Origin: Paracoccaceae bacterium
Lineage (GTDB): Bacteria > Pseudomonadota > Alphaproteobacteria > Rhodobacterales > Rhodobacteraceae
DNA length: 64,000 nucleotides
Assembly: GCA_028284605.1 (NCBI GenBank)
Contig: JANQRL010000010.1
Coordinates: 1 to 64,000 of the forward strand
Direction: 5' to 3'
Positions within the stretch are counted from its first letter, which is position 1; the number at the start of each line of letters is the position of its first letter. Below the pieces are notes generated by a model that did no database searches, had not been told where the DNA came from, and was given only the letters and a program-made list of their open reading frames with translations. The translations under genes were made by a program, and so were the position numbers. Shown one piece after another: positions 9,272-55,923 of this stretch.

Positions 9272-9312
9272 AAAACTCTTCGAAGAGTTTTGCCAGACCC
9301 TTGGAAGGGTCT
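9272..9312. repeat. Paired TTCGAA palindromes, copy 1
   Basis: aaaactcttcgaagagtttt (9272-9291), spacer gcc, then agacccttggaagggtct (9295-9312, centre one base off). It lies 14 bp after the soxW-like stop. As RNA, the first hairpin has an A-tract before it and a U-tract after it, like a bidirectional terminator. Confidence 0.95.
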
Positions 9313-9376
9313 GCGGCGCGGCCGGAGACGGGTCTGGGGGCGTGAGACCCGGCACCCGGCCCGGTCGCCGGGGGAT

Positions 9377-9417
9377 GAAACTCTTCGAAGAGTTTCGTCA
9401 GACCCTTCGAAGGGTCT
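9377..9417. repeat. Paired TTCGAA palindromes, copy 2
   Basis: gaaactcttcgaagagtttc (9377-9396), spacer gtc, agacccttcgaagggtct (9400-9417). It has the same orientation as the copy 65 bp upstream and lies in the same convergent gap. Confidence 0.95.
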
Positions 9418-12781: not shown

Positions 12782-12843
12782 ATTTCAAGGTTTGTTGAAA
12801 TACCCTATCCGCCCAATCAGGTCGTTTCAAGAGGTGTTGAAAT
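12782..12843. promoter_or_regulatory. Two tandem ArsR-type operators
   Basis: Two copies of TTTCAA-N6-TTGAAA occur: 12782-12801 (atttcaa/ttgaaat) and 12824-12843. The second abuts the ArsR start codon at 12844. Both half-sites are perfect inverted repeats. Position between divergent genes supports autorepression and control of the DUF6428 gene. Confidence 0.7.
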
Positions 12844-13167
12844 ATGGATGACGAAAGAGCCGCCGCGACCCTCGGCGCTCTGGCCCATGGGACCCGGCTG
12901 GCGATCCTGCGGCTTCTGGTGCGGGCAGGGCCGGTGGGGATGGCGGCGGGGCAACTCACCGAGACCCTGGCCCTCAGCCCCTCGCTCGGATCGTTCCACC
13001 TCGCCGCCCTGGCCGAGGCCGGGGTGCTGACCCGGCGGCGGGAGGCCCGGCATGTGGTCTATGCCGTGGATTTTCCGGCCCTGGGCGGGCTCCTGGGCCA
13101 TCTCGTGCAGGATTGCTGTGCCGGGGCACCGGAGATCGTGGCCTGTTGCGGGGAGGCGCGGTGTTGA
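12844..13167 (+). CDS. ArsR-family metalloid/metal-responsive repressor
   Basis: A 107-residue winged-helix repressor with no room for other domains. The helix-turn-helix region is LTETLALSPSLGSFHLAALAEAGVL, followed by the wing TRRREARHVVYAVD. The C-terminus carries a cysteine array, QDCCAGAPEIVACCGEARC, which would bind As(III) or a soft metal. It is paralogous to the ArsR at 61994, sharing the DCC[GA]GAPE motif. It is divergent from the DUF6428 gene with twin operators between. Confidence 0.88.
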   Translation: MDDERAAATLGALAHGTRLAILRLLVRAGPVGMAAGQLTETLALSPSLGSFHLAALAEAGVLTRRREARHVVYAVDFPALGGLLGHLVQDCCAGAPEIVACCGEARC

Positions 13168-24297: not shown

Positions 24298-24338
24298 AAA
24301 ACTCTTCGAAGAGTTTTGTCAGACCCTTCGAAGGGTCT
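24298..24338. repeat. Paired TTCGAA palindromes, copy 5
   Basis: aaaactcttcgaagagtttt (24298-24317), spacer gtc, agacccttcgaagggtct (24321-24338). It lies in the 388-bp gap 24146-24533, which holds no gene that I can see. Confidence 0.95.
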
Positions 24339-24404
24339 GATCGCCGATCGTCGCGAAGCGGGCGCTTGCCCCTTTGGCACGCAACCCCGGCCAGGTCCGG
24401 CGGC

Positions 24405-24444
24405 AAACCCTTCGTAGGGTTTTGTCAGACCCTTCGAAGGGTCT
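24405..24444. repeat. Paired TTCGAA palindromes, copy 6
   Basis: Imperfect aaacccttcgtagggttt (24405-24422), then agacccttcgaagggtct (24427-24444). One centre base differs (ttcgta). It is downstream of the SDR stop at 24534. Confidence 0.9.
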
Positions 24445-27963: not shown

Positions 27964-28004
27964 AAAACTCTTCGAAGAGTTTTGCCAGACCCTTCGAAGG
28001 GTCT
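27964..28004. repeat. Paired TTCGAA palindromes, copy 7
   Basis: aaaactcttcgaagagtttt (27964-27983), spacer gcc, agacccttcgaagggtct (27987-28004). It is between purF and cvpA, both on the minus strand. Confidence 0.95.
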
Positions 28005-28076
28005 GACGTCGGCCGATGCACCCGGGCGGGGGCTGTCTCCGGAAAGGCGCGGCGCGGTGGGGGGCTTCGCCGGGAC

Positions 28077-28118
28077 AAAACCCTTCGAAGGGTTTTGCGC
28101 AGACCCTTCGAAGGGTCT
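28077..28118. repeat. Paired TTCGAA palindromes, copy 8
   Basis: aaaacccttcgaagggtttt (28077-28096), spacer gcgc, agacccttcgaagggtct (28101-28118). It ends 17 bp from the cvpA stop. Confidence 0.95.
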
Positions 28119-53557: not shown

Positions 53558-53776
53558 ATGATGCCAGTGATCAGACCCCTGAATATCCCGGAGCAGCCGG
53601 AGACGGAATACCGGGCAGAGCAGAAGATGCTTGCAGAAATGCAAGCCGAATTGCGCGCGCAGACGCGGGCGCTGCGGCGGGCGCAGCTCTTCGGATGGTT
53701 CAGCCATGTCCGGGATGCGGCGGCCCTGCCGGCGAAGCGCAAGCCGTCCGCGGCGGCCGGGTTCGGAACGTCCTAG
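53558..53776 (+). CDS. Small basic/coiled protein of unknown function
   Basis: A 72-residue protein with an ideal AAGGAG ribosome-binding site 7 nt before the ATG. A helical stretch (YRAEQKMLAEMQAELRAQTRALRRAQLFGW, about 18-47) could form a short coiled coil. No family is recognised. It is divergent from the LysR gene and overlaps the 3' end of the DUF3307 gene by 4 bp on the opposite strand. Confidence 0.6.
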   Translation: MMPVIRPLNIPEQPETEYRAEQKMLAEMQAELRAQTRALRRAQLFGWFSHVRDAAALPAKRKPSAAAGFGTS

Positions 53777-54459
53777 GGGCGCAGGGCGAGGGCCTCCAGC
53801 GCCCCATAGGCCGCGATCAGCGCCCAGCCGAAGGAGGCAAGCGTTCCGATGATGACGTATTCGCTGGCGCGCTGGTCCTCCTTCGCGGTGTCGAACCGGA
53901 GGATCGATTTGGCCGCGATCAGAAAGCCCACGGCGGCGGGCTGTCCGACCCAGACCAGCAGGTAGATCAGCCCCCGCTCCAGAAATCCGATCATGCGCCC
54001 CGCCGCCGGCAGCCCGGCATTGGCGGGTTTCAGCGCCTTGGAGAACGGGTCGATCAGAAGGCCCACGGCCGGTCCGCCGGCCCAGGTCGCCGCTATGAGA
54101 CCGCTCAGCCCCACGGCGAGGGCGAAGAGCCCTGGCGTCAGGACCCAGGCGGTCTCTGCCTCGAAGAGCAGCACGGCGGCCACAAGGGTCGCGACATGGG
54201 CCAGCTGGTCCGCGAGGTAGACCCAGAGCCGGTCCGGCAGTGCATGGACCTTGATGAGGTCGATCAGAAGATGCGCGGCGGCCAGGCCCAGGGCGATCTC
54301 GACCTCTCCGCCCAAGGCCGCGAAGGCGAGGGCGAAGTGGACCCCGATATGCAGGGCCATCGGACCGGGCTCTTTCTTGCGGGCGATCATCGCGTCGGTC
54401 TGCAAGGGAAAGTCGGCCAGCAGATGGGCGAGGAGCAGCAGGGCCAGGGTCTCGATCAT
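53773..54459 (-). CDS. DUF3307 membrane protein
   Basis: A 228-residue protein with about six membrane segments, starting MIETLALLLLAHLLADFPLQTDAMIARK, the DUF3307 opening. HxxxD-like polar residues (AHLLADFPLQTD) sit at the first helix, and AAAHLLIDLIKV repeats the pattern. The role is unknown. Its start overlaps the SatD-like gene stop by 4 bp, so the two are co-translated and probably work together. Confidence 0.8.
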   Translation of the reverse strand: MIETLALLLLAHLLADFPLQTDAMIARKKEPGPMALHIGVHFALAFAALGGEVEIALGLAAAHLLIDLIKVHALPDRLWVYLADQLAHVATLVAAVLLFEAETAWVLTPGLFALAVGLSGLIAATWAGGPAVGLLIDPFSKALKPANAGLPAAGRMIGFLERGLIYLLVWVGQPAAVGFLIAAKSILRFDTAKEDQRASEYVIIGTLASFGWALIAAYGALEALALRP

Positions 54460-55091
54460 GGCGGCGCCCCGAGATGCGCGAAGGCGGTGATGGCGGGTTG
54501 AAGCGCCCTGAAATGCGCGCCGGCGAGACGCCGCTGCACCGCCTGTCTGGTGATCCCGAGGCCCTCGGCGATCTTCTCCTGCGTCGTACCCGGCGGCAGG
54601 AGCGCCAGGGCCACGGCCTCCGCCTGTTCGGGGGTCCAGCCGGCGGTGAGCGGGTCGAGCAGGGCGACGATCGCCTCTTCGGCGGGGCCGACGCCGGCGC
54701 CCGCGACCGCCAGGGTGCGGGTCCGATGAAGGGTGTCGAGCGCGGTGCCGGAGGCGACGAAAGCACCGCCGCTGGCATCGGAGAGATCGCGTGTGCCGCC
54801 ATATTCCGGCGCGCCGATGCCCAGCGCGATGCGGGTGGCGAGGCCGGGGTCGCTCGCTTGCAGTGCGGCGCGCAGATAGACCATCGCCAGCAGCCCGGTT
54901 CCGGGATCGGGCAGGTGAACCTGCCATCCATCGCCGCGAAACCGGGTGAAGCGCAGATCGTGGCCGGTCGCCGCTCCCAGCCGTTCGGAGACGCGGCGCA
55001 GGGTTTCCATCGCCCGGTCGGTCCCCCCCGGAGAGCTTCGGGACCCGATCAGGTCGCCGCTGAGGACAGCCTCTGGATTTGCCTTTGCCAT
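54456..55091 (-). CDS. SatD-like protein with cyclase-like motifs and C-terminal HTH
   Basis: A 211-residue protein that I place in the SatD family. The N-terminal region has SGDLIGSRS (about 11-19) and FRGDGWQ (about 52-58), at the positions of the two metal-binding Asp motifs of class III nucleotide cyclases. IALGIG...DASGGAFVASGTALDTL resembles the cyclase core further on. The last 50 residues hold an HTH (TQEKIAEGLGITRQAVQRRL). Whether it makes a nucleotide is unknown. The ATG at 55091 is used; the frame includes a TTG at 55097. It is coupled to the DUF3307 gene. Confidence 0.75.
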   Translation of the reverse strand: MAKANPEAVLSGDLIGSRSSPGGTDRAMETLRRVSERLGAATGHDLRFTRFRGDGWQVHLPDPGTGLLAMVYLRAALQASDPGLATRIALGIGAPEYGGTRDLSDASGGAFVASGTALDTLHRTRTLAVAGAGVGPAEEAIVALLDPLTAGWTPEQAEAVALALLPPGTTQEKIAEGLGITRQAVQRRLAGAHFRALQPAITAFAHLGAPP

Positions 55092-55093
55092 AT

Positions 55094-55127
55094 GCAAGTT
55101 ATAAGGCTTGCTATTGCAAAATGCAAT
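55094..55127. promoter_or_regulatory. Palindromes upstream of the SatD-like gene
   Basis: GCAAG-N8-CTTGC (55094-55111) and ATTGCA-AAA-TGCAAT (55113-55127) lie just upstream of the SatD-like ATG in an AT-rich patch. They are candidate operators for its own HTH. Confidence 0.45.
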
Positions 55128-55165
55128 GATTTTAGCTTGCTTCTTTCAGCCGAACCTTGGCCGAC

Positions 55166-55780: not shown

Positions 55781-55821
55781 AGACCCTTCGAAGGGTCTGG
55801 CAAAACTCTTCGAAGAGTTTT
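55781..55821. repeat. Paired TTCGAA palindromes, copy 10 (reversed order)
   Basis: agacccttcgaagggtct (55781-55798), spacer ggc, aaaactcttcgaagagtttt (55802-55821). The two arms are in the opposite order to copies 1 and 5-8. Confidence 0.95.
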
Positions 55822-55882
55822 GGCGCGCCGGTTCGGCGCTCCGCCAGGATCATCGGAGGCCGGGCGACAGAGGCGCCGGGGC

Positions 55883-55923
55883 AGACCCTTCAAAGGGTCT
55901 GACAAAACCCTTGCAAGGGTTTT
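55883..55923. repeat. Paired palindromes, copy 11 (reversed order)
   Basis: agacccttcaaagggtct (55883-55900, centre changed), spacer gac, aaaacccttgcaagggtttt (55904-55923, centre TTGCAA). It precedes the GDPD terminator. Confidence 0.9.

Follow-up and report, generated by a model that had tools for sequence, protein, structure and literature searches.

The window (the whole 64,000-nucleotide stretch of DNA that was analysed) comes from a 3.56 Mb genome whose relatives are Rhodobacteraceae, and it encodes on its minus strand a SatD-like protein followed by a DUF3307 membrane protein (Table 1). As proposed in the first-pass annotation, both genes were recovered as open reading frames, and the TGA stop of the first overlaps the ATG start of the second in the tetranucleotide ATGA. 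An alternative TTG start for the SatD-like gene, 6 nt upstream of the ATG, is possible; the ATG is favoured because an operator ends exactly 2 bp before it in 32 related promoters. To our knowledge, neither SatD nor DUF3307 is a family with a defined function.

Table 1. Features of the SatD-like/DUF3307 locus in window coordinates.
Feature	Position	Strand	Basis or remark
SatD-like gene, 211 aa, ATG start	54456..55091	-	ORF call, homologues, AlphaFold2 model (pLDDT 95.9)
Class III cyclase-like domain, residues 7-131	54699..55073	-	Profile, HHalign and model fold matches
D13 codon	55053-55055	-	Invariant, 98/98 homologues
D54 codon	54930-54932	-	Invariant, 98/98 homologues
Helix-turn-helix, residues 171-191, Arg182 in predicted recognition helix	54519..54581	-	
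DUF3307 membrane protein gene, 228 aa	53773..54459	-	PF11750, 55.7 bits; model pLDDT 94.8
DUF3307 domain proper (N-half)	54145..54447	-	Invariant H12, D16, Q20, H37, H63, D67, K70, D84, Q85, H88
C-terminal partner domain, residues about 150-213	53821..54012	-	Only part of the partner that accompanies every SatD examined
Operator 2 (predicted), palindrome GCAAG-N8-CTTGC	55094..55111	.	Stops 2 bp short of ATG
Operator 1 (predicted), GCAAG-N8-ATTGC on minus strand	55123..55140	.	29 bp from operator 2

The N-terminal domain of the SatD-like protein resembles class III nucleotide cyclases in both sequence and predicted structure. A profile built from eight relatives and run against 385 alphaproteobacterial genomes matched adenylate/guanylate cyclases over columns 3–102, with E values down to 1.5e-6, and the cyclases that it found bear the motifs DVVGYS, KxMGDG, RIGI and GDGVNIAARLE. 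In profile–profile comparison with cyclases (HHalign 96.6%, E 5.7e-10), both metal-binding aspartates were aligned. The AlphaFold2 model, made from 98 sequences (pTM 0.92), had 24 matches in the PDB at E<=0.001, each of them to a class III cyclase or a GGDEF domain; they include the Pycsar cUMP synthase 7r65 (PycC), and no mCpol or CRISPR polymerase was among the fold matches listed. Against class III cyclases, Foldseek returned E 4.8e-5 and VIA a Z of up to 12.4, with an rmsd of 3.1 over 139 residues. We have virtually no doubt that this domain has the class III nucleotide-cyclase fold. The cyclase resemblance that had been read from the letters was therefore borne out, structure prediction and fold search having returned a cyclase/GGDEF fold and not an unrelated one.

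Two motifs on which that reading drew, GDLIGS (containing D13) and RGDGWQ (containing D54), and the C-terminal helix-turn-helix (HTH) are real and conserved in homologues. Across alphaproteobacterial, gammaproteobacterial and bona fide SatD sequences (98 homologues), D13, G53 and D54 never vary and S17 and Q57 hardly do, giving a conserved signature, GD..S / GDxxQ, that is specific to the SatD-like family. By contrast, the position of the base-specifying Lys is occupied by Arg in the alphaproteobacterial sequences and mostly by Ile or Leu elsewhere, and the positions of the transition-state Asn and Arg are variable (Thr116 in the window protein). Without conservation of the Lys, Asn and Arg by which cNMP cyclases are defined, the SatD-like protein is unlikely to make a cNMP, and nucleotide synthesis by it appears improbable from its residues. 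The earlier suggestion of a nucleotide-making or nucleotide-sensing regulator thus divides: a sensing regulator fits well, whereas making is weakened. Judged by its conservation, the pocket is under selection, though not like that of an ordinary cNMP cyclase. The HTH was assigned from weak Pfam HTH matches, from model helices at residues 171–178 and 182–191 and from covariation with the operator, described below.

The name SatD-like needs a qualification. The window protein had no match to Pfam SatD (PF16264; gathering cut-off, 29 bits) at E<=1, nor was a SatD match present anywhere in the window genome; in Pfam, the protein matched weak HTH models at its C-terminus. However, the profile of the alphaproteobacterial SatD-like proteins aligned with that of bona fide SatD (HHalign 97.7%, E 1.9e-12) over 184 columns that include the HTH, and gammaproteobacterial bridge members match PF16264 weakly. 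On these profile alignments, the window protein is a member of the SatD superfamily, and the name holds through profile comparison and not through a direct Pfam match. Bona fide SatD alone matched the cyclase profile weakly (18.6%), so its homology to cyclases rests on the bridge through the SatD-like proteins.

The downstream gene product is a clear member of Pfam DUF3307 (PF11750; gathering cut-off, 23 bits). Its model is all helix, with nine helical segments in place of the six helices first counted. Fold searches of the model against the PDB and BFVD gave no significant match, which does not show a new fold. A Panoptes-type effector, 2TM and rich in β-strands, was considered for this partner and was ruled out by the all-helical model.

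Two halves can be distinguished in the partner. In five loci (L145, L146, L147, L199 and L200), the gene after SatD encodes a small membrane protein whose alignment is confined to residues about 110–213 of the window protein, and the C-half carries the signature G..IG.LER...AAKS..RF...EY..IGT..S. As read from these alignments, it is the membrane protein's C-terminal half, and not the DUF3307 domain, that constantly accompanies SatD. A SatD-less clade of four full-length partners keeps 11 of 11 N-half invariants, and I157, L180, R188 and Y201 are changed in all four members; as this is one clade and a single loss event, erosion of the C-half without SatD is only suggestive. The DUF3307 half seems from such conservation to have a function of its own, kept where SatD is lost, and its invariant His/Asp/Gln set looks like a membrane metal site. 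SatD-less Rhodobacteraceae (L131, L132, L134 and L194) retain a DUF3307 gene with a decayed C-half; in L131, L132 and L134 the gene follows sufT. DUF3307 as known from PF11750 and from the phage membrane protein family PHROG 2470 corresponds to the N-half of the window protein. Short Bradyrhizobium-type DUF3307-only proteins (about 135 aa; L137–L144) resemble that short phage family; both kinds are without the C-half, and the Bradyrhizobium-type loci seen are also without SatD.

An independent genome scan placed the membrane gene directly downstream of the SatD-like gene in 80 of 80 Rhodobacterales loci, at −8 to +10 nt from the SatD stop in 71 of them; one copy (L071) looks broken. In an unbiased survey of 149 genera of the window genome's family, a SatD-like gene was present in 28 and a matching partner in the same 28, a count in which two partner matches are partial, one of them at a contig end. 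In one additional genome (G729), a full-length partner is present and SatD is absent. When 299 Pseudomonadota were surveyed starting from DUF3307, SatD lay upstream of every full-length partner with an intact C-half. Plasmid copies of the pair were found in Segatella (Bacteroidota), Sphingomonas, Vibrio, Salinivibrio, Pseudomonas, Enterobacter and E. coli, and a Fusobacterium record carries a bona fide SatD (53.5 bits) with a DUF3307 protein (58.7 bits), the pair being present in three phyla. Viral contigs scanned with the SatD-like alignment and phage records searched with bona fide SatD and Segatella SatD yielded none. That the pairing is obligate in the sets examined is close to certain, and the adjacency first seen in one genome is conserved far beyond it.

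Palindromes had also been reported upstream of the SatD-like gene, and the two that we located (Table 1) belong to a wider pattern. Across Rhodobacterales promoters, the palindrome NCAAN-N8-NTTGN was observed 182 times, where shuffled sequences gave 1.3; no other spacer length produced a signal of this kind. The period of the tandem copies is 29 bp in 89 of 109 spacings and 28 bp in 13 more, and the last palindrome of an array most often stops 2 bp before the ATG; operators went undetected in 7 of the 80 promoters. A search of 149 genomes returned the tandem pattern in 12; in 10 of these 12 it immediately precedes the SatD-like gene, and a control pattern had zero occurrences across the 149. 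Because the tandem pattern is nearly confined to the SatD-like operon, the regulator would have essentially one target per genome, its own operon. The promoters of gammaproteobacterial and bona fide SatD genes have the same 5-8-5, 28/29-bp geometry (8 of 10 score 19–20 of 20; shuffles, 0/200), with half-sites that mostly differ (GCAAA, GTAAT, TCACA, ATAGC, TGAAC and TGACC). Among 11 loci from the plasmid collection, four score 18–20 (shuffles, 0/200), three score 17 (1–4/200) and four are not significant.

The half-sites vary together with the protein. The residues that best predict the first base of the half-site (G or T) are 182, 204, 186, 171 and 187, nearly all of which lie in or beside the HTH. 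Within the Rhodobacterales, Arg182 is present in 59 of 59 GCAAG-class proteins versus 2 of 12 TCAAG-class proteins. When only the cyclase domain was used to build a tree, the T operator emerged in five clades; exactly four of these have lost Arg182, and the fifth retains Arg182 and has Asn186. This pattern, although correlational, matches the prediction of direct recognition, and relatedness alone would not explain it. Since Arg182 and the half-site covary on four independent branches, the protein is almost certainly an autoregulator, and autoregulation of its own operon can be considered highly probable from these comparisons. Repression is probable, but only that, since no good σ70 promoter was found under the window operators: none reached the threshold of the tool used. 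A TATAAC box lies inside operator 2, and we place no weight on it.

Other palindromes were observed in the same genome. On contig C17 of the window genome (G000), at 12782-12907, two GCAAG-N8-CTTGC palindromes with GC-rich cores stand 108 bp apart; these are probably not SatD operators. Within the window, the palindrome GACCCTTCGAAGGGTC occurs at nine places, mostly in pairs about 100 bp apart (9296-9416, 24322-24443, 27988-28117 and 55782-55899), where 0.07 matches would be expected. It is an interspersed hairpin repeat of the window genome, of which one pair lies about 700 bp upstream of the SatD-like gene.

The surroundings of the pair differ between chromosomes and plasmids. With sufT upstream in 76 of 80 loci and an IscA/HesB gene downstream in 74 of 80, the pair occupies a fixed place next to SUF genes on Rhodobacterales chromosomes, not a defence island. 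On plasmids, the pair looks like cargo. In E. coli pEC34A (L203), a minimal mobilizable plasmid of 3,770 bp, it makes up two of five annotated genes and is the main cargo; on pPFL, it adjoins toxin–antitoxin and integrase genes; and on a Sphingomonas insulae plasmid (L201), its neighbours are a ThsB-like TIR gene, accompanied by HTH/ImmA-IrrE genes, on one side and, on the other, a Pycsar operon (PycC, E2-like and 2TM effector) with strong PADLOC matches. These defence and toxin–antitoxin neighbourhoods are examples, not an enrichment test. The PADLOC models gave no match to the SatD-like and DUF3307 proteins of the window, even though the Pycsar neighbours in L201 match strongly, and membership of the pair in Pycsar was rejected. 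The link to two-component defence systems such as Pycsar, offered as speculation in the first-pass annotation, accordingly fails for Pycsar itself and is otherwise circumstantial, with plasmid copies near defence or toxin–antitoxin genes and Rhodobacterales copies near SUF genes. The pair may be a stress, addiction or anti-phage switch; an anti-phage role specifically is doubtful. As side observations, roughly 70 additional residues separate the two halves of the pEC34A partner, a feature common to the Enterobacter and P. fragi copies, and DUF3307 relatives of the same size also occur in Klebsiella. At the sensitivity of megablast, E. coli complete genomes were without the pEC34A pair.

We propose, with a probability of roughly 0.6, that SatD and its partner form a self-regulated two-gene module in which a ligand-controlled autoregulator, most likely a repressor, governs a membrane effector. 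In this model, the C-terminal HTH would bind, as cooperating dimers, two or more palindromic operators 28–29 bp apart over its own promoter, and the N-terminal cyclase-fold domain would bind a metal–nucleotide (or related) ligand that controls DNA binding. The co-transcribed membrane protein would be the regulated cargo, with its C-terminal membrane domain as the constant effector and the DUF3307 half as an accessory. SatD would hold the effector low or off until stress or infection alters the ligand and thereby releases it. The fold, the obligate pairing, the operator arrays and the operator/HTH covariation were computed, and autoregulation by one partner through upstream palindromes, a criterion for toxin–antitoxin systems, was found computationally. 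From these we infer ligand sensing in place of catalysis, and repression, not activation, as the likely mode of action. For a harmful, toxic effector restrained by SatD, we would put the odds somewhat below even. In Streptococcus pyogenes, transposon sequencing scored satD as essential in all strains examined that have it, yet 29% of genomes lack the gene; it is the one accessory gene scored essential, and no mechanism was proposed (PMC11323703). In Panoptes, OptS restrains OptE, which is toxic without OptS (PMC12657218). By analogy, restraint of a harmful partner could explain how satD can be both essential and accessory. The essential-if-present pattern and the C-half erosion in the SatD-less clade support partner restraint indirectly.

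Other readings share much of this evidence. The invariant metal aspartates and the family signature would suit an enzyme, a nucleotidyl cyclase or transferase, that makes a product by which the membrane effector is gated directly, transcriptional control being added on top. Such a guard-type signalling pair would resemble Panoptes or, with the sign reversed, Pycsar, and it accords with the fold matches to 7r65 and GGDEF enzymes, the two-gene layout of synthase and membrane protein, the parallel between satD essentiality and OptE toxicity, and the plasmid copy between Pycsar and Thoeris-like genes. We nevertheless consider it unlikely, given that the base-specifying Lys and transition-state Asn/Arg are not conserved, that PADLOC found no match and that the partner is an all-helical membrane bundle without a recognised nucleotide-binding domain or known relative. 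The pair could instead be a toxin–antitoxin-like addiction module of mobile elements, with the C-half as toxin, neutralized mainly by SatD autorepression, and the cyclase fold as a vestigial scaffold. The 3.77-kb plasmid pEC34A with the pair as main cargo, the toxin–antitoxin neighbours on pPFL, the essential accessory gene of S. pyogenes and DUF3307-first surveys that gave no intact C-half without SatD all point that way; we give this account a low probability, as a vestigial domain would not have kept its metal aspartates unchanged and a fixed position beside SUF genes is unlike a selfish element.

That same position, between sufT and the IscA/HesB gene in about 90% of Rhodobacterales loci, would be natural for a housekeeping switch that responds to nucleotides or metals and controls a membrane transporter or enzyme, without any part in toxicity or defence, and the invariant His/Asp set of the DUF3307 half suggests a metal site or enzyme. 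The SUF neighbourhood could, however, be merely a permissive site, and the patchy distribution (28 of 149 genera), the plasmid and defence-gene contexts and the essential-but-accessory pattern of satD make this reading very improbable. A more far-reaching idea, which we regard as less likely than not, is that SatD proteins are a new class of cyclase-fold guardians: HTH proteins, sensing or making a nucleotide, that silence a widespread membrane effector through repression at phased operators and perhaps also through a small-molecule signal. If the nucleotide were lost or titrated away, the effector would be unleashed. If true, the pair would represent an immune or addiction system based on inhibitory signalling, separate from CBASS, Pycsar and Panoptes and found in three or more phyla, on minimal plasmids as well as on chromosomes.

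SatD as a cyclase-fold, DNA-binding autoregulator with a constant membrane partner would explain the anatomy of the SatD family, and it narrows the S. pyogenes puzzle to whether SatD restrains its partner and which nucleotide is sensed. Moreover, the 28–29-bp phasing was kept while half-sites turned over, which provides a natural set of regulators and operators for the evolution of DNA specificity.

Among known systems, the SatD family itself (PF16264; the S. mutans sat genes and S. pyogenes satD) is related by a full-length profile match and the same invariant Asp pair. Bona fide SatD also shares with the window protein phased-palindrome promoters and a membrane C-half partner; unlike the window pair, bona fide SatD of Pseudomonadota partners with the C-half only, whereas the Fusobacterium SatD has a full DUF3307 protein. 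The class III adenylyl/guanylyl cyclases (for example, Rv1900c and Ma1120) have the fold and both metal-binding aspartates in common with the SatD-like protein, which differs from them in its unconserved catalytic Lys, Asn and Arg, its fused HTH and its phased operators. In Pycsar (PycC + PycTM), a cyclase-fold protein is likewise encoded beside a membrane protein, and PycC is among the fold matches; the SatD pair departs from it in PADLOC result, membrane protein, HTH with autoregulation and absent catalytic residues. Panoptes (OptS mCpol + OptE) has a similar two-gene layout, in which the first gene restrains a toxic membrane effector. Its components are an mCpol and a 2TM β-rich effector, in contrast to the class III-like fold, HTH and all-helical bundle of the SatD pair, for which satD genetics would, by analogy, suggest a Panoptes-like restraint.
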